DNA from: Gilliamella bombicola
GTDB lineage: Bacteria; Pseudomonadota; Gammaproteobacteria; Enterobacterales; Orbaceae
Direction of reading: 5' to 3'
NCBI RefSeq assembly: GCF_900094945.1
Contig: NZ_FMAQ01000004.1
Location: 39,213 to 103,212, forward strand
DNA length: 64,000 nt
Shown one piece after another: positions 37,921 through 45,941 of this stretch (its first letter is position 1; each line of letters opens with the position of its first letter). The notes beneath the pieces are model-generated. The model saw only the letters and a list, made by a program, of their open reading frames with translations. It was not told the DNA's origin and did no database searches. The translations under genes and the position numbers were made by a program.

Positions 37921-38490
37921 TTAAAAATCAGGCACCGTTGCGGTTTGGCTTAGTCCATAGCTATTAAAGTTGCCTTGTACTGGCTCTAGGCATTTTTCTT
38001 GCTTTATCCACAAAATAAATTTTTGCCCTGTACTTTTACTATGCAAATGAAAGTGTGGATATTGCAAATGAACGCTTCCCCACTTTTCAATCATTTTATT
38101 TTTTACTTCAGGCGTCCATTTTCCTTGTGCTGTTAATCGTTGTTCGGCACGCCTTAATGCACTCTGACCTTTCGGATTAACACGGCTAAAACGTAAATAG
38201 CCTTTTATCGTCGTTGGTACTATAGTGATAGGCATCAATAAAGCATAATCACTAATTGTCGATTTTTGCTGTATATCTGCTTTGAGGTTTTGCAACTCCT
38301 TCTCAGTGCCCAATAGGCGAATCACTCCACCTAATGTTCGGTGCACTCTGTAACAAGGAAAGCTAATTGCGATATTGCCTTGGTGATTGACCAAAATTTG
38401 ATGTAATGATTGCATCACTTGATTCATCACATCCAATTCGGTTATCTCAATTTGCGAAATGGCTCGCAACTCTAAATAATGTGAGTGCAT
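37921..38490 (-). CDS. cas6f: Cas6f/Csy4, type I-F pre-crRNA endonuclease
   Basis: A 189-residue protein (P. aeruginosa Csy4 has 187). The catalytic His is His30 (SLHQIL, aligned with His29 of GKLHQAL), the serine-containing STGQKF motif is present at about residue 151, and an Arg-rich helix (QSALRRAEQRL) would grip the repeat hairpin. It ends in the family's YGLS and VPDF. It cleaves repeats at the 3' base of the stem-loop and stays bound. Last gene of the operon, 5 bp after csy3, convergent with flhA. Confidence 0.95.
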   Translation of the reverse strand: MHSHYLELRAISQIEITELDVMNQVMQSLHQILVNHQGNIAISFPCYRVHRTLGGVIRLLGTEKELQNLKADIQQKSTISDYALLMPITIVPTTIKGYLRFSRVNPKGQSALRRAEQRLTAQGKWTPEVKNKMIEKWGSVHLQYPHFHLHSKSTGQKFILWIKQEKCLEPVQGNFNSYGLSQTATVPDF

Positions 38491-39541: not shown

Positions 39542-40465
39542 TTAATTGGTTTCTTGATTAATAACATAAATTTCTGCATCATTAGATTGCAACTCACTGC
39601 ATTTATAACGCCAAAAAGCCTGTGATAAATTCTCTTTCAAGCGTAAAGGAAAGACCCATTTACCAAGCCCATAAATACACTCCACAAATTGCGTGGCATG
39701 CTCATTACTGCGCGCATGTTCAACCTTACCGGCTGAAAATAGTGGCGAAATAGCTTGATAGCCTAAATGTAAAGGCACAAGCCAACCGCGCCCTTGTTTA
39801 ACTGATGTAGTTTGCCAATGATCTTTTTCTTGAGGATGATGATGTAACATTGCGGTTTCAATCAAGGCATCAAGCGCTGTAGCATTAGGATCTTGTTGCT
39901 GTAATTCCGCAGTGATATCTTGTAAATCTTGTGGTGCTTCAACTAAAACAAATGCGGGTAATAGTGCATTGATTAAGTGTTTATTTGATTCTGATGCAGA
40001 ATATAGCGCGACTGATTCAATATCGACAACGTGCCCACCAGCAACACGTTGCTGGTAAAGTTTTTGTTTCATCTGTTGGATGAATGCTTGCTGCTCATCT
40101 GCATCATCTAATGTTTCACGATCTTCAATTTTTACCTCAACAAGTAATGAAACATCTAGATGAACTCGCCCTTCTTCAATAATTGAACGAGTACTACCAT
40201 TTTTAGCTAGTGGATTGCGTGTTAATCGAAAAGTATAATCCGCATAGTTGTTTGGCCGATAAATTTGTACATCACATTCATGACATGCAATTAACACACC
40301 ATCTAAGTAAATAGGATTTTCTGATTCAATTTTACGACTTAAAGCATGAATAGCGCCTAAAAACCCCGAAATAGCAGGAAAGCCATACGTTAATGGGCTA
40401 GAAATTGCATTAGCATTATGAATTTTGACATGATCAAATAATAAATAATAACGTAATGATGCCAT
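39542..40465 (-). CDS. csy2: Cas5f/Csy2, Cascade small subunit at the crRNA 5' end
   Basis: A 307-residue protein. Family features include YYLLFDHVKIHNANAISSPLTYGFPAISGFLGAIHALSRK at the N-terminus and the H-C-H/C-containing GVLIACHECDVQIYRPNN. It pairs with Csy1 and holds the 8-nt 5' handle of the crRNA. It overlaps csy1 by one base. Confidence 0.95.
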   Translation of the reverse strand: MASLRYYLLFDHVKIHNANAISSPLTYGFPAISGFLGAIHALSRKIESENPIYLDGVLIACHECDVQIYRPNNYADYTFRLTRNPLAKNGSTRSIIEEGRVHLDVSLLVEVKIEDRETLDDADEQQAFIQQMKQKLYQQRVAGGHVVDIESVALYSASESNKHLINALLPAFVLVEAPQDLQDITAELQQQDPNATALDALIETAMLHHHPQEKDHWQTTSVKQGRGWLVPLHLGYQAISPLFSAGKVEHARSNEHATQFVECIYGLGKWVFPLRLKENLSQAFWRYKCSELQSNDAEIYVINQETN

Positions 40466-41844
40466 TAAAAGATCCCCTCCCTTTTTCGTTGACTTGCTTT
40501 CACCGCAGCACTAAATTCGCGGCGCCATTCGCTAAATTCAGGATCGGCAAATTGCTGTTTAATATTTTTAAATTTTTCTTTTAAAGCATTTTGAACCCAA
40601 TTTGCAAAACTCTTTTCTAGACTTTGTTGCCAATCACCTTGTTCATACTGCTTTTTAAAATCCTCTTCATTCTCTAATTGGGCTCGCTGTGGATCAAGCC
40701 AAAGTTTTTCATGAAAATCGAGAGAATAATCACGGCTCCAACCGGCTGGTTGAGTAGTTTGAATATGGCGAGCAAACTTAAGTAGTAATGATAAAATCAC
40801 CGCAAACGCATCTTTACGATCATCTCTTTCTTCTACAATATTTTTTGGTGCTTCAACCATATCAAACAATAACCTAAAACCAAATCGACAAAAATATTGC
40901 AGTGCATTATTGAAAATTGTTTCTTGTTGTTTAGAAATGGATGGGAATTGAGATTTTTCAAATATAGGAGGCATAGAGGGTAATAAAAAATTGCGTCCTC
41001 CCTGATTACTGGTTAATTGACTTACTCCCTGTGGATTGCTACCGCCCAATTTAACTACCGCTAAATGATGAAATGAAAAATAAGACTGATGTTTAATATC
41101 TTTAATTCGTCGTTGTTCACGTGCTTTTTTATTTTCATCTGAAAATCGTGATTGTACTTTTTGATAAACCAAATGACACAATGAACTAGGATGTAACGGA
41201 ATTAACAATCGATAATTATTGTCTTGCTGTGATAAATAAGTTTCTTCACTATTGGGCCAATATAATTGCTTATTAAGCTCCGAGGCTTTAGGGTTATCGA
41301 AATCATTAAAGATTGCTTTTTTAAAATTAGTTAAATAAAGCAATGCTTTTTCTTTATCGTCAGAAAGCGCAGCTAAAACAGCAGGGTGATCATTTACAAT
41401 CAATTGCAAAAATGTCACATCTTCTATAACAAATTGATTTAATAAAGAAAAAACATCAAGAGCGGCAGCATTGCCTGAACAATCAAGCGGAAGGGTTGTA
41501 GGTGTAGCTGAAGAAACATATAGCTGCTCAATCGGTTGGGATTGTGTTGAATAATTGATATTATCGCCAAGACTTGAAGAATGTATGCTTTTGCTATTAT
41601 TAGTACCCATTGATATCCATGAGATCCTTCTGGTGGCAGCATCTTCCATCCACGTTTCAAAATCAAACCGTTTAGCGAGTTCAGCTAACTTTTGCTGAGC
41701 TTCATTCACTGCAACCTGATCTCCTAGCTCTTTTGCTTTTTCTAGCTTAGCGGTTTCGCTTTTATAGCTACTATTATTGGCAAGTCGCTGTTGCAGAAAA
41801 TCTACAATTATTTTTCTTATATCTTGCCAAGAAATATTATTCAT
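40465..41844 (-). CDS. csy1: Cas8f/Csy1, Cascade large (PAM-reading) subunit
   Basis: A 459-residue protein (P. aeruginosa Csy1 has 434). The VVKLGGSNPQGVSQL loop at about residues 266-280 corresponds to the conserved K-GG-NPQN-S region that reads the CC PAM in this family. AAGGAGGG stands a few bases before the ATG. Only 75 bp separate it from the preceding small gene, and those hold an intrinsic terminator. I see no promoter of its own there, so csy1-4 may depend on read-through. Confidence 0.95.
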   Translation of the reverse strand: MNNISWQDIRKIIVDFLQQRLANNSSYKSETAKLEKAKELGDQVAVNEAQQKLAELAKRFDFETWMEDAATRRISWISMGTNNSKSIHSSSLGDNINYSTQSQPIEQLYVSSATPTTLPLDCSGNAAALDVFSLLNQFVIEDVTFLQLIVNDHPAVLAALSDDKEKALLYLTNFKKAIFNDFDNPKASELNKQLYWPNSEETYLSQQDNNYRLLIPLHPSSLCHLVYQKVQSRFSDENKKAREQRRIKDIKHQSYFSFHHLAVVKLGGSNPQGVSQLTSNQGGRNFLLPSMPPIFEKSQFPSISKQQETIFNNALQYFCRFGFRLLFDMVEAPKNIVEERDDRKDAFAVILSLLLKFARHIQTTQPAGWSRDYSLDFHEKLWLDPQRAQLENEEDFKKQYEQGDWQQSLEKSFANWVQNALKEKFKNIKQQFADPEFSEWRREFSAAVKASQRKREGIF

Positions 41845-41919: not shown

Positions 41920-42237
41920 CTATGCTGCTTTATATTTTAAATATAACTTCAATATATTTAATGCGTTGTTGTTATAAACCCATTTTTTATGAGAATTTAA
42001 AGAGCGATACTTAGATTGTTCTAGTTCTAAATTCTTAATTAGATATTTGACTTCTTTAGTCGTCGAAATATTTAGAATTTTCATTATATCTCGAATCAAA
42101 TAATATTTAACTTTACTACTTTGTTTGAGCGCATCGTTAGCTGATGATATATTGATATTAAATAATTTTAATTTAATTGACCAAATATTTTTTATTGAAA
42201 ATTGACATTCGATTGTTAACCTTTTATTCTTGAACAC
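41920..42237 (-). CDS. Small basic protein inserted between cas2-3 and csy1, function unknown (toxin or regulator candidate)
   Basis: Not a standard type I-F component and not a family I recognise. I place the start at GTG 42237 because GGAG stands nine bases before it, giving 105 residues; an in-frame TTG at 42252 lacks such a site. The protein is very Lys/Asn/Ile-rich and strongly basic, without a signal peptide or obvious membrane helix. Residues about 45-70 (YLIRDIMKILNISTTKEVKYL) and the later KKWVYNNNALNILKLYL are arranged a little like a MerR/excisionase-type winged helix, which is only a weak visual likeness. It has its own promoter, which carries a seed match to the nearby degenerate CRISPR guide, and its own terminator. 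It could be a toxin held off by Cascade, a DNA-binding regulator, or an unrelated passenger. Confidence 0.6.
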   Translation of the reverse strand: MFKNKRLTIECQFSIKNIWSIKLKLFNINISSANDALKQSSKVKYYLIRDIMKILNISTTKEVKYLIKNLELEQSKYRSLNSHKKWVYNNNALNILKLYLKYKAA

Positions 42238-42274
42238 AAATTTTTTCTCCAATTAGCGTTGTTGATGAAATTTT

Positions 42275-42305
42275 AAACCCTAGATGGGGGAACATCTGGG
42301 GTTTT
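42275..42305 (-). other. Stable stem-loop in the leader of the small gene
   Basis: AAACCC, one unpaired base and AGATG pair with CATCT and GGGTTT around a six-base G/C loop, on either strand. It lies in the predicted 5' leader about 40 nt before the small gene, directly after the stop of a 12-codon mini-frame (42304-42342, containing an ATA and a final AGA codon, with no ribosome-binding site). On the + strand it is followed by T-rich sequence and could instead be a plus-strand terminator. Confidence 0.6.
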
Positions 42306-42364: not shown

Positions 42365-42393
42365 AATATAAATACAAAAAAAGAAAATGTCAA
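42365..42393 (-). promoter_or_regulatory. Near-consensus sigma-70 promoter facing the small gene and csy1-4
   Basis: On the minus strand a perfect -35 TTGACA (42388-42393) is followed after exactly 17 bp by TATATT (42365-42370). The predicted start is about 42358, leaving a leader of roughly 120 nt before the small gene. The -35 box lies inside the protospacer matched by the degenerate guide. Confidence 0.8.
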
Positions 42394-42411
42394 ATATTAA
42401 TCGTAATGTGG
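42378..42411 (-). promoter_or_regulatory. Predicted CRISPR-guide operator: CC PAM plus 11-nt seed match over the -35 box
   Basis: Reading the minus strand, CC (42411-42410) stands directly before ACATTACGATT (42409-42399), identical to the first 11 nt of the pseudo-spacer at 42449-42479. CC 5' of the protospacer is the type I-F PAM. After these 11 positions the match stops apart from scattered bases. A 32-nt protospacer would cover 42378-42409 and so the whole -35 element. In known CreR/CreA guides such short PAM-proximal matches allow Cascade to bind without recruiting Cas3 cleavage. Confidence 0.8.
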
Positions 42412-42420
42412 GAATATTGA

Positions 42421-42507
42421 AAATGAAACCGCCTATTCGGCGGTGAAATAATTATAACGATTACACTCAATCGTAATGTTTTCTAAACTGCTTATACAGC
42501 AGTGTCA
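42421..42507 (-). CRISPR. Degenerate two-repeat mini-CRISPR (CreA/CreR-like)
   Basis: Read on the minus strand: repeat 1 (42507-42480) has stem CTGCT/AGCAG, loop GTATA and handle TTTAGAAA; a 31-nt pseudo-spacer follows (42479-42449); repeat 2 (42448-42421) has stem CCGCC/GGCGG, loop GAATA and tail TTTCATTT. The canonical I-F repeat has stem CTGCC/GGCAG and handle CTTAGAAA or CTAAGAAA. Both stems remain perfectly paired although their bases changed, and both keep the G before the Cas6f cut site. The handle is kept only in repeat 1, where it would be used. Spacing (28+31+28) is that of an I-F array, where spacers are usually 32 nt. Confidence 0.85.
42429..42487 (-). ncRNA. Predicted processed guide RNA from the degenerate mini-array
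   Basis: If Cas6f cuts after the stem of each degenerate repeat, the product is an 8-nt handle UUUAGAAA, a 31-nt guide and the 20-nt 3' hairpin of repeat 2, 59 nt in all; normal I-F crRNAs are 60 nt. The guide contains a 6-bp inverted repeat (ACGATT/AATCGT) that could fold on itself before loading. Expression and processing are predicted, not shown. Confidence 0.65.
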
Positions 42508-42543
42508 TCAAGTATAAAAGAATTACCTCACTTTTACTAGCAA

Positions 42544-42617: not shown

Positions 42618-45600
42618 TTATCCTTTCTTTTTATAAAATCCTAAATAAGGATGAAAATACCAACTGCAATTGCGATATAAGCTTACGCTACAAAATTCAT
42701 TCGCTAATCGATATGGCGTTTTATTTGGAAAATATTCGGCTATTTTTGCTATGGCTTGCTCGACACTATTAATTAGCCAAGGTTGGATGTTAGGATTAGC
42801 AAATGACCAGTCTTTATATTCAATTATACTATTTTGTGTATCTTTACAGCAGTCATCTGGCGTTTGCCATGCAATATCTGCATAGCTAAATTGGTGATTT
42901 CCATCATCGTCAAGTTGGCAAATATATTCATCTTGTGTCTTATCATTCCCTCTAAATGGTGAAATTGCCTGTAAATGCACGCAATGGTGATGAGCTAAGC
43001 CTTGTTGCCAATAGCTAGTCACATAATTACTTTTACGGGCATTAATTGCAAACAGATCTGCCATGACTTTATGTTCTAATTCAGCTAGCGTTAGTCCATC
43101 TTCAGGGCAAGAATGAATACGTGGAACCGCATCAACATTTACTAACTGATGCTCAGGAATTAGTTCATTTGTTTTATGGGTTTTCAGCAAGAATAATGGC
43201 TTTTCTTCAAAACCTGGTTTAGTAAAACAGGCTTGATCTGTTCGATAATTAGATTCAATTGCTTTTAAATTCGATCCTAATATGGCTACATTAGCTTTTT
43301 GTGCAATTTTTTGTGGCCGGTGACGCCATACCCGTCCAACTAACTGAATAATAGATCGCATGGATGAGGGTTCTACAATCGCCCAATCATAATCATGATC
43401 GCGCCCGACTTCGGTGACTGGCGTGCCTATCACAATAAAGATATGATTTTCTTTCTTGCTACTTTTTATAGCCTGGAAAATTTCGGGTTGGCTAAATAGT
43501 GCTTGTTCATCACTGCGATTTAAAATTCTATCGAGTTTTTCTTCTAATTGGCTACGCAATAACAGCAGTTGCCGAGCATGATAGACCACGATATGAAAAG
43601 CGGTATCATTAGGTAACTTCTTTTGTTCATAAATTTGTTGTGTAAGTGAAATAACATCTTCTATATGGGCAAAACGCATTAAACCAATACTAACTTTTTT
43701 TTGTGATTTTTTATCTATTTGATGATGATCTTGGTGAAATTGATAAGCTTGATCTAATAGTTGTTTAGCCAGTACAGCATAATTGAATTTTTGATTCTCT
43801 GTTTTATTTTCTTGGTAATTTAATAGATCTAAAATATGCCCTTGGCGACGGATTGCACTTTGTGCTAATTGATGAATGCGTGTTGCTACAAATTGTTGAT
43901 GGTGCTCGCTAAACGTTTTAGTATCAGCAATTTGTGATATCGACTGTTGATATTCATCAAACCAGCCACATACAATAGTATTATCGGCATATTGTTTATT
44001 TTGATTCCAAATTTTTCGCCCGGCTTGGTAAGCGTCAAATAATCCGGCAATTAAATCTGGTGTTAAAGTCGCCGATGACAGTAGTACTTTGCTCCCAAAC
44101 AATCCGGCTAAATGCACTAAACGCGCTAGCGCTGGCAAGTCGTGTTGATCAAAATCATCGGGTTCATCTAAAATCAGATCTGAGGTTAACAATCTTAACG
44201 TTGGTGCAATATATTTACCGCCTCGGCTACATTCGCTAGCTTGAATAATATGGTCAATTGTGCATGTCACAATAGGCGCATAAAGTAATTGCCGTGCTTT
44301 ACTATCTTCGATAATAGTACCTAATTCACAATCAGCAATACCACTTTCTGCTACATCAATATATTCATCAAGTAACGATTCGATAGATTCACTACCTTGG
44401 TTTTCTGATTTTTTTTGAGAATCGTTTTGTTCAATGTCTTCATTACTCAGTTCAAACAAGGTTTTTGTGGCTCGCCCACCCACTAAAATCGCCAGATGTT
44501 CATCACTTAAGTGTAATCTTTCTCTTAATGCTTTACCTGTTTGCAACGTTAAAACACGTAATCCCAATGCAATGGTAAAACGAACGCCCCGTTTTGGATT
44601 TGAAAGCGCATACATAATCCGCCCATTGGCTAAGGTTTTACCACAGCCAGTCGATGCCATGTTAACACCAAAAAAGCCACATTCCTCAGATTGTTGTTGA
44701 TAACTTTTTGCTAAATCAAAAGCATGATTTTGCCATTGGAATCGTTTTATAGTTGTTCGTTTGGTAAAAGGTTTATGTTGATTGATTGCGGGTAATTCCG
44801 TGGTTATTTTAGGTAATAAACGAGCAAAACGGGCTGAAAAATTAGCAACACCGACCAAATGATCATCCAAACACTGTTTGGCTTCTTTTTGGTAATTTGT
44901 GTTGGCAATCAGTATTGCCCTATTTTTTTTTGCCTCGTCATTTGATAAAGATAAACTTGAGTAGTTATGATCAGCCACCATTAAGCTTAAACGTGAAATA
45001 TGCAATAAAAACGCGTCAATATTAGACAATTGCATTAAAGGCACATGATTTAAGGCTTTGGCTGCATAGCGACTTAGTTTTTTCAGCCAAGGCTGACTTA
45101 AGGTAATATCACTTTTAAGCTGCCAAAAATCGTTGGGTGAAGTGTGTTGACTATGACTATTTTTAACCCATTTATCAATTGCCTTAAATGTTTTATAAAA
45201 ACTTCGGATAGTTAAACCAGATATATCAAAATCTATTTTCTGTAAATTTTTAATATCCCCCGTTAATGAATCTGGTAAAAACGGCATTCTATGATGCGAC
45301 ACAATGAGCCACGCAATCCATTGTGCCAATAATGGTAACTGCGTAAGATCATTTTTTTCAACTTTGGTAAGCTGCTTGTACCAATTAGGATGTTGTTGTT
45401 GATATTGAGTAAAATGCGCTAATCGATTAAATAAGGCTTCGTTGGTGGTGCAGTCTTGAATCATTAATAAAAATAATTGCAACGAAATCCATTCATGTCG
45501 GTAAGGATCAGCAGCCACAGCCGTTTCTGCTCGTAATTTAGATTGAAAACCAACCGTTGCTTTGCCTAAATCATGAAGTAGGGCTGCCATAGTTGTGATC

Positions 45601-45941
45601 AATTGAATAGCGGTTGCATATTGCCAACAATTTTCGCTGTCACTGCGCAAAATATTACGTTTAGTACGATTAGTTGGGACTCGTCCTTCTTGATTAAACT
45701 GACTGCGATCACCCACAATCCACAAAAGATCAGTTAAATTTTTACCATGTGTCCAATAACATGCAACAGCAGTATTTTTGCGTGCGGTTTTGCGTAATAA
45801 TTTATAAAGCGTTTGTAGCCCAGCTTCGGTCATTGGGCTTTGCCATGTTCGTTCACCGCAGCGCTCAGCGAACTGATCAATTATGCGACGCGTTTCGGTT
45901 AATGCATTCTTTTTGCATTGACTAACAAGTAAAATATTCAT
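42618..45941 (-). CDS. cas2-3: Cas2-Cas3 fusion nuclease-helicase, type I-F
   Basis: A 1107-residue protein with the fusion that defines type I-F. A Cas2-like domain fills residues 1 to about 90 (MNILLVSQCKKNALTETRRIIDQF), the HD nuclease motif is LLHDLGKA at 121-128, Walker A is TGCGKT at about 432, Walker B/DExx is LILDEPDDFD at about 594, and the C-terminal helicase half includes GTPVTEVGRDHDYDW and QLVGRVWRH. It joins Cas1 for spacer capture and is recruited by Cascade to degrade targets. It overlaps cas1 by 4 bp and ends 110 bp before the degenerate mini-array. Confidence 0.96.
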   Translation of the reverse strand: MNILLVSQCKKNALTETRRIIDQFAERCGERTWQSPMTEAGLQTLYKLLRKTARKNTAVACYWTHGKNLTDLLWIVGDRSQFNQEGRVPTNRTKRNILRSDSENCWQYATAIQLITTMAALLHDLGKATVGFQSKLRAETAVAADPYRHEWISLQLFLLMIQDCTTNEALFNRLAHFTQYQQQHPNWYKQLTKVEKNDLTQLPLLAQWIAWLIVSHHRMPFLPDSLTGDIKNLQKIDFDISGLTIRSFYKTFKAIDKWVKNSHSQHTSPNDFWQLKSDITLSQPWLKKLSRYAAKALNHVPLMQLSNIDAFLLHISRLSLMVADHNYSSLSLSNDEAKKNRAILIANTNYQKEAKQCLDDHLVGVANFSARFARLLPKITTELPAINQHKPFTKRTTIKRFQWQNHAFDLAKSYQQQSEECGFFGVNMASTGCGKTLANGRIMYALSNPKRGVRFTIALGLRVLTLQTGKALRERLHLSDEHLAILVGGRATKTLFELSNEDIEQNDSQKKSENQGSESIESLLDEYIDVAESGIADCELGTIIEDSKARQLLYAPIVTCTIDHIIQASECSRGGKYIAPTLRLLTSDLILDEPDDFDQHDLPALARLVHLAGLFGSKVLLSSATLTPDLIAGLFDAYQAGRKIWNQNKQYADNTIVCGWFDEYQQSISQIADTKTFSEHHQQFVATRIHQLAQSAIRRQGHILDLLNYQENKTENQKFNYAVLAKQLLDQAYQFHQDHHQIDKKSQKKVSIGLMRFAHIEDVISLTQQIYEQKKLPNDTAFHIVVYHARQLLLLRSQLEEKLDRILNRSDEQALFSQPEIFQAIKSSKKENHIFIVIGTPVTEVGRDHDYDWAIVEPSSMRSIIQLVGRVWRHRPQKIAQKANVAILGSNLKAIESNYRTDQACFTKPGFEEKPLFLLKTHKTNELIPEHQLVNVDAVPRIHSCPEDGLTLAELEHKVMADLFAINARKSNYVTSYWQQGLAHHHCVHLQAISPFRGNDKTQDEYICQLDDDGNHQFSYADIAWQTPDDCCKDTQNSIIEYKDWSFANPNIQPWLINSVEQAIAKIAEYFPNKTPYRLANEFCSVSLYRNCSWYFHPYLGFYKKKG

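Follow-up and report, generated by a model that had tools for sequence, protein, structure and literature searches.

The type I-F CRISPR-Cas locus of Gilliamella bombicola, a bee gut bacterium of the Orbaceae, raises the question of what function, if any, is served by two repeat-like hairpins, 59 nt apart, that lie on the minus strand in the gap between cas2-3 and csy1. The window, that is, the whole 64,000-nucleotide stretch of DNA analysed, encodes a complete I-F set (cas1f, cas2-3, csy1, csy2, csy3 and csy4), and the hairpins occur between the end of cas2-3 (42618) and the start of csy1 (41844), on the same strand as both genes. The original prediction described them as a two-repeat mini-CRISPR with a 31-nt spacer reading in the cas direction within this gap, and the sequence bears this out, except that the unit does not directly adjoin csy1, since a 105-aa ORF (hereafter X) and a terminator intervene. 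The features considered are the following.

42618 to 45941, minus strand: cas2-3, the gene upstream of the unit
42511 to 42516, minus strand: TATACT, -10-like element of the putative creR promoter, some 8 nt before the R1 stem begins, read from the sequence
42480 to 42507, minus strand: pseudo-repeat R1, with Cas6f hairpin CTGCT/AGCAG and 5' handle TTTAGAAA, read from the sequence
42444 to 42479, minus strand: guide plus 5' flank of R2 (pseudo-spacer 42479-42449, R2 5' flank 42448-42444)
42429 to 42443, minus strand: stem-loop of pseudo-repeat R2, CCGCC-GAATA-GGCGG, its 3' handle gone
42410 to 42411, minus strand: target PAM, read from the sequence (CC in 17/19 loci, CT in L022 and L029)
42399 to 42409, minus strand: target seed ACATTACGATT, identical to guide nt 1-11
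42365 to 42393, minus strand: predicted target promoter TTGACA-17-TATATT, directed toward X and csy1 (11/12 match)
42274 to 42305, minus strand: 5'-UTR hairpin before X, scored terminator-like on the plus strand only
41920 to 42237, minus strand: ORF X, 105 aa, GTG start after GGAG, with a modelled C-terminal MerR-type winged helix
41879 to 41910, minus strand: intrinsic terminator between X and csy1, kept in 14/14 X loci folded
40465 to 41844, minus strand: csy1 (cas8f), first gene of the putatively regulated csy1-csy4 operon
37921 to 38490, minus strand: csy4 (cas6f), predicted cutter of R1 and R2

R1 (42507-42480) reads TGACACTGCTGTATAAGCAGTTTAGAAA, with the stem-loop CTGCT-GTATA-AGCAG followed by the handle at 42487-42480, while R2 reads ...TTTCA CCGCC GAATA GGCGG TTTCATTT. 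The pseudo-spacer between them is 31 nt long in its native register. Cleavage by Cas6f is predicted to release 42487-42429, a product of exactly 59 nt with the 5' end 5'-UUUAGAAA, matching the RNA of about this length that had been anticipated from the same interval. The true array of the genome, a two-spacer array on contig C20 located for comparison with R1 and R2, has the repeat GTTTACCGCCGAGTAGGCGGTTTAGAAA; judged against it, the R2 stem CCGCC/GGCGG is the local array stem unchanged and the R1 stem alone has diverged. Compensated changes had been proposed for both stems; the R1 stem is diverged yet paired. The two repeats are unlike each other, and it is the R1 stem and the missing R2 handle that depart from the array repeat. 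An ordinary array has repeats that are almost identical, a steady period of about 60 nt and an intact handle in each internal repeat. These features are not found here, the R1-R2 period ranging from 48 to 66 nt among relatives; what is found is a single pseudo-spacer flanked by two degenerate repeats at a cas locus, the organization of CreR units.

As a chance control, CACTGCCNNNNNGGCAGTTTAGAAA was searched in the 2.32 Mb genome allowing up to three mismatches. This recovered five matches, of which one is R1 itself, three belong to the true array and the last is a repeat in a degenerate one-spacer array; the backward control gave 0. The 93-nt RNA folds with a z-score of -3.8, none of 200 shuffles being equally stable. 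Upstream of R1, the TATACT element is kept at the same place in 17 of 19 relatives, is replaced by TATAAT in one and is absent from G017, where an inserted repeat-spacer unit occupies that spot; its presence before R1 in nearly all relatives suggests that a transcript would start at or adjoining R1. A scan of the whole window against Rfam gave no match, and a search with the plain TTTAGAA-spaced pattern was uninformative. Exact 17-mer matches to the guide were found 19 times in viral contigs, none of them behind a repeat hairpin, and for this reason they were taken as chance; a second pattern gave no matches.

The guide itself (42479-42449) can fold on itself (ACGAUU with AAUCGU), a similar fold being kept in L030, and this might weaken the guide, tune its strength or be incidental. 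The degenerate one-spacer array (L017:1690-1775, corresponding to G000 contig C20:343189-343274) has a leader-like flank. A CC-flanked target for its spacer was sought elsewhere in the genome and only the spacer itself was recovered, and the remnant was accordingly not taken for another regulatory guide.

A promoter target for the guide, absent from the original prediction, lies 19 nt beyond the R2 stem on the same strand and reads CCC-ACATTACGATT-AATATTTGACA. The PAM of type I-F systems is CC (PMC10097628). The combined PAM and seed, CCNACATTACGATT, has no second copy in the 2.32 Mb genome, and none of 500 shuffled leaders reached the match of the window's guide to its own leader. The seed match ends 5 bp upstream of the -35 element of TTGACA-17-TATATT, the top promoter-like match in the region, and the -35 hexamer coincides with target positions 17-22, within the predicted Csy footprint; from the footprint of a 32-nt guide, a complex on 42411-42399 would be expected to cover it. 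A partly complementary, PAM-flanked site at the promoter that drives the effector cas genes is likewise characteristic of CreR, and it is this CC-flanked promoter site, reading toward csy1, that decides between the names CreR and CreA. X lies between the target promoter and csy1 in the window strain, and no gene does so in five relatives. Promoter matches near the target are weak (8/12) in two short-leader loci, L025 and L026.

The occurrence of the unit was analyzed in 44 genomes of the family, 23 of which carry csy1. A mini-CRISPR was found at the same place in 19 of these 23, with many different guides. Three csy1-bearing genomes, L034 (wkB178), L036 and L039, have no unit, indicating that it is dispensable, L036 having an ordinary array at that place; in L033 the contig end cuts the locus before the creR position. 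All five pairs of the R1 stem are kept in every distinct relative sequence; two pairs have changed on both sides and a third on one side only, and covariation is 0.51 versus 0.25 in shuffles. The R1 handle conforms to [CT]T[TG]AGAAA in 19/19 loci, whereas the flank 3' of the R2 stem shows 10 different sequences among the 19. This pattern corresponds to the needs of crRNA biogenesis, in which R1 provides the handle and R2 only a hairpin, and it upholds the earlier proposals that the handle survives only in the repeat supplying it and that the unit is a CreA- or CreR-type guide rather than a decaying array.

Guides and targets were compared at 17 non-duplicate loci, which are kin and do not represent 17 independent events. 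At each of them the guide pairs with the leader of its own locus, guide and target agreeing at 164 of 170 seed positions. When guides and targets were re-paired in 10,000 trials, the agreement averaged 91 and never exceeded 129. Many of the guide and target changes between relatives are paired changes; between the window and L030, for example, position 2 goes from C/C to T/T and position 9 from A/A to G/G. The CC-flanked match was unreached by shuffled leaders in 16 of 18 loci. L022 and L029 are the exceptions, the site used in both being flanked by CT; in L022, 64/500 shuffles reached the best CC-flanked match, which is therefore no better than chance, and good pairing occurs at the CT-flanked site only.

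Matches were also counted by position in a leave-one-out manner, each position being judged at the site chosen without it. These counts revealed agreement in 160/170 cases at positions 1-5 and 7-11, in 10/17 at position 6 and in 3/17 at position 12, so that positions 6 and 12 together match in 13/34 cases versus 212/238 at the other positions from 1 to 16 (p = 2.5e-10). Past position 17 the matches drop toward background. Every sixth crRNA base is flipped out in type I Cascade, and mismatches at exactly positions 6 and 12 are what such a six-base register predicts, a clustering that would be hard to obtain from a cause other than Cascade. Selection thus appears to keep the PAM and seed positions 1-11 while ignoring positions 6 and 12, and not to keep pairing beyond about 18 nt, as avoidance of self-cutting needs.

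On this evidence, it is very probable that the unit is a creR-type regulatory mini-CRISPR through which the Csy complex represses its own csy operon, the guide most likely steering the complex to the operon's own promoter rather than fighting viruses. The sequence directly shows the unit, the match of PAM and seed, a promoter-like site and the conservation of all of these together, and from them we infer transcription, processing, binding and repression in the following manner. A short transcript would start just upstream of R1 and be cut by Cas6f (Csy4) after the R1 and R2 stems, giving a 59-nt crRNA-like RNA with a 5' handle and a 3' hairpin. The Csy complex would load this RNA, bind the CC-flanked site at 42411-42399 and, since that site adjoins the -35 of the promoter feeding X and csy1-csy2-csy3-csy4, cover the -35 and block RNA polymerase. 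Strong pairing is limited to about 11 nt in the window and reaches no further than about 17 nt in relatives, for which reason cutting by Cas2-3 is not expected. The csy operon would in this way keep its own expression in check, with repression predicted to relax once the complex is taken up by ordinary crRNAs or anti-CRISPR proteins.

What counts against control of csy1 in the window strain is that ORF X and a terminator separate the target promoter from csy1, which could also be fed by a promoter inside X or by read-through from cas2-3. X (104-107 aa) lies between target and csy1 in 14 loci including the window, and its 15 full-length copies in the 44 genomes are all just upstream of csy1 and nowhere else in the Orbaceae; a copy without csy genes was never seen in these genomes, and X without creR occurs only in L033, whose contig ends before the creR place. 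The N-terminus is variable and unstructured in the model, and the C-terminal 60 residues (pLDDT above 90) are modelled as a winged helix near MerR-family DNA-binding domains, with Foldseek E-values of about 0.06-0.3 that denote fold resemblance and not homology. Sequence searches against Pfam, PHROGs, NCBIfam and PDB gave nothing convincing, PADLOC gave a weak mad1 match (E = 0.0025), and no relatives of X were found in viral contigs. The hairpin before X is kept in 14/14 X loci folded, in shape and not in sequence. A second stem in the X leader of many relatives would hide the Shine-Dalgarno sequence.

One way to accommodate these elements, which is possible though rather unlikely, is a three-part switch placed under the guide-bound Csy complex and formed by the target promoter, the structured leader before the MerR-like X and the terminator before csy1. 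X would then set the share of derepressed transcription that reaches the csy genes, with the leader hairpin, its own promoter or read-through as possible routes. If true, a dedicated protein regulator within the cas operon would be tied to RNA-guided autorepression. No published counterpart of a gene such as X, with structured leader and terminator, was found in the literature searched.

X and its terminator also make a CreA-type antitoxin the main rival in the window strain, the Csy complex then repressing a toxic X, or a small RNA from the same promoter, and the cell being addicted to CRISPR-Cas. The CreTA module of Acinetobacter sp. WCHA45, also type I-F, represses a toxic RNA that is read divergently and contains a 33-bp mini-ORF, and it closely resembles the present unit in its cas3-csy1 gap, its pseudo-R1/pseudo-spacer/pseudo-R2 order, its CC PAM and its partially paired target with a mismatch at position 6 (PMC10097628). 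The hairpin and terminator belonging to X, as well as its restriction to this locus in the Orbaceae and to genomes with csy genes, are also consistent with such a role. In contrast to the Acinetobacter mini-ORF, X and its promoter read toward csy1, no toxin is evident among ORFs of at least 35 codons, X matches no toxin family, and its C-terminus models as a MerR-type DNA-binding domain instead of a toxin fold. Furthermore, five relatives (L025, L026, L028, L035 and L038) retain creR and a target despite having no X; this target lies 131-141 nt ahead of csy1, and no gene separates the two. In one of them, L038 (Pra-s52), X is visibly deleted to its last codons, with the promoter fused to them (GCATCATAA) and the terminator decayed, and creR still pairs with its target at 15/15 counted positions; this natural deletion argues that X is not the reason for creR to exist. 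An antitoxin role is therefore improbable, and the unit fits CreR (cas autorepression) better than CreA.

Still less probable is a purely structural role of the DNA or RNA, for example in hairpins that terminate or attenuate transcription past cas2-3, with a guide match derived from local duplication. Although the R2 hairpin scores as terminator-like and a tandem duplication did occur in L019 and L021, simple duplication explains neither the CC before the copy nor the mismatches at positions 6 and 12, nor an 8-nt handle kept in R1 alone. That the unit is an ordinary array decaying after spacer loss is scarcely credible, for although terminal repeats of real arrays also degenerate and the genome has a one-spacer remnant on contig C20, such an array would not retain stems, handle, PAM and guide-target pairing over 19 genomes with different guides, and the mispairing control is strongly contrary.

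The favoured reading, CreR-type autorepression, is of a kind already known, the unit probably being an additional case in a type I-F system. Liu et al. (2023) reportedly described CreR as cas-regulating RNAs from mini-CRISPRs of types I-B, I-E and V-A. The unit shares with these the two degenerate repeats, the guide of limited complementarity and the PAM at the effector operon promoter; CreR needs no toxin, and here X combines a modelled DNA-binding fold with no toxin match. It differs in being type I-F, from the Orbaceae and predicted from sequence, and in that most of these genomes have a small winged-helix gene and a terminator between promoter and csy1. Shmakov et al. (2023, NAR 51:8150) are said to have found standalone repeats near cas8 with a partial match to its promoter, and to have shown that one I-F1 mini-array acts as a regulatory guide; gene X and the genus-wide guide-target series would go beyond those I-F mini-arrays. 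CreR has been reviewed in PMC12737573 and PMC12948488. Repeat mimics outside arrays, as here, are also represented by RNA anti-CRISPRs (Racr) and phage mini-arrays (PMC10651486, PMC11656645); these are phage-borne, Racr being solitary repeats, whereas the present unit is chromosomal and inside a cas locus. The literature searched, which did not cover the closest studies, contained no earlier account of I-F CRISPR in Gilliamella. If correct, the interpretation extends RNA-guided Cas autorepression to the I-F systems of bee-gut bacteria, in a case made unusually clear by the concerted change of guide and target throughout the genus. At least a dozen different guide-target pairs at one genomic position constitute a clean natural experiment, and natural loci in which X is deleted, or the unit is duplicated or absent, allow the roles of guide and regulator to be tested directly.

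Several loci carry further rearrangements. In L019 and L021, creR, target and promoter are duplicated in tandem, the second copy lying about 250-400 nt after R2. The 5' stem arm is lost from the R1 of that copy (CTGCT to ATTTT); the first guide matches the second target at 14/15 counted positions, and one guide thus appears to serve two sites. In L029 (G017), R1 is preceded by an additional repeat-spacer unit, possibly a newly inserted or a relic guide, whose stem is degenerate and whose spacer is 32 nt long; the PAM at the target of this locus is CT. In L040 and L041 (G018), csy1 is split into two frames and creR still pairs with its target at 15/15 counted positions.
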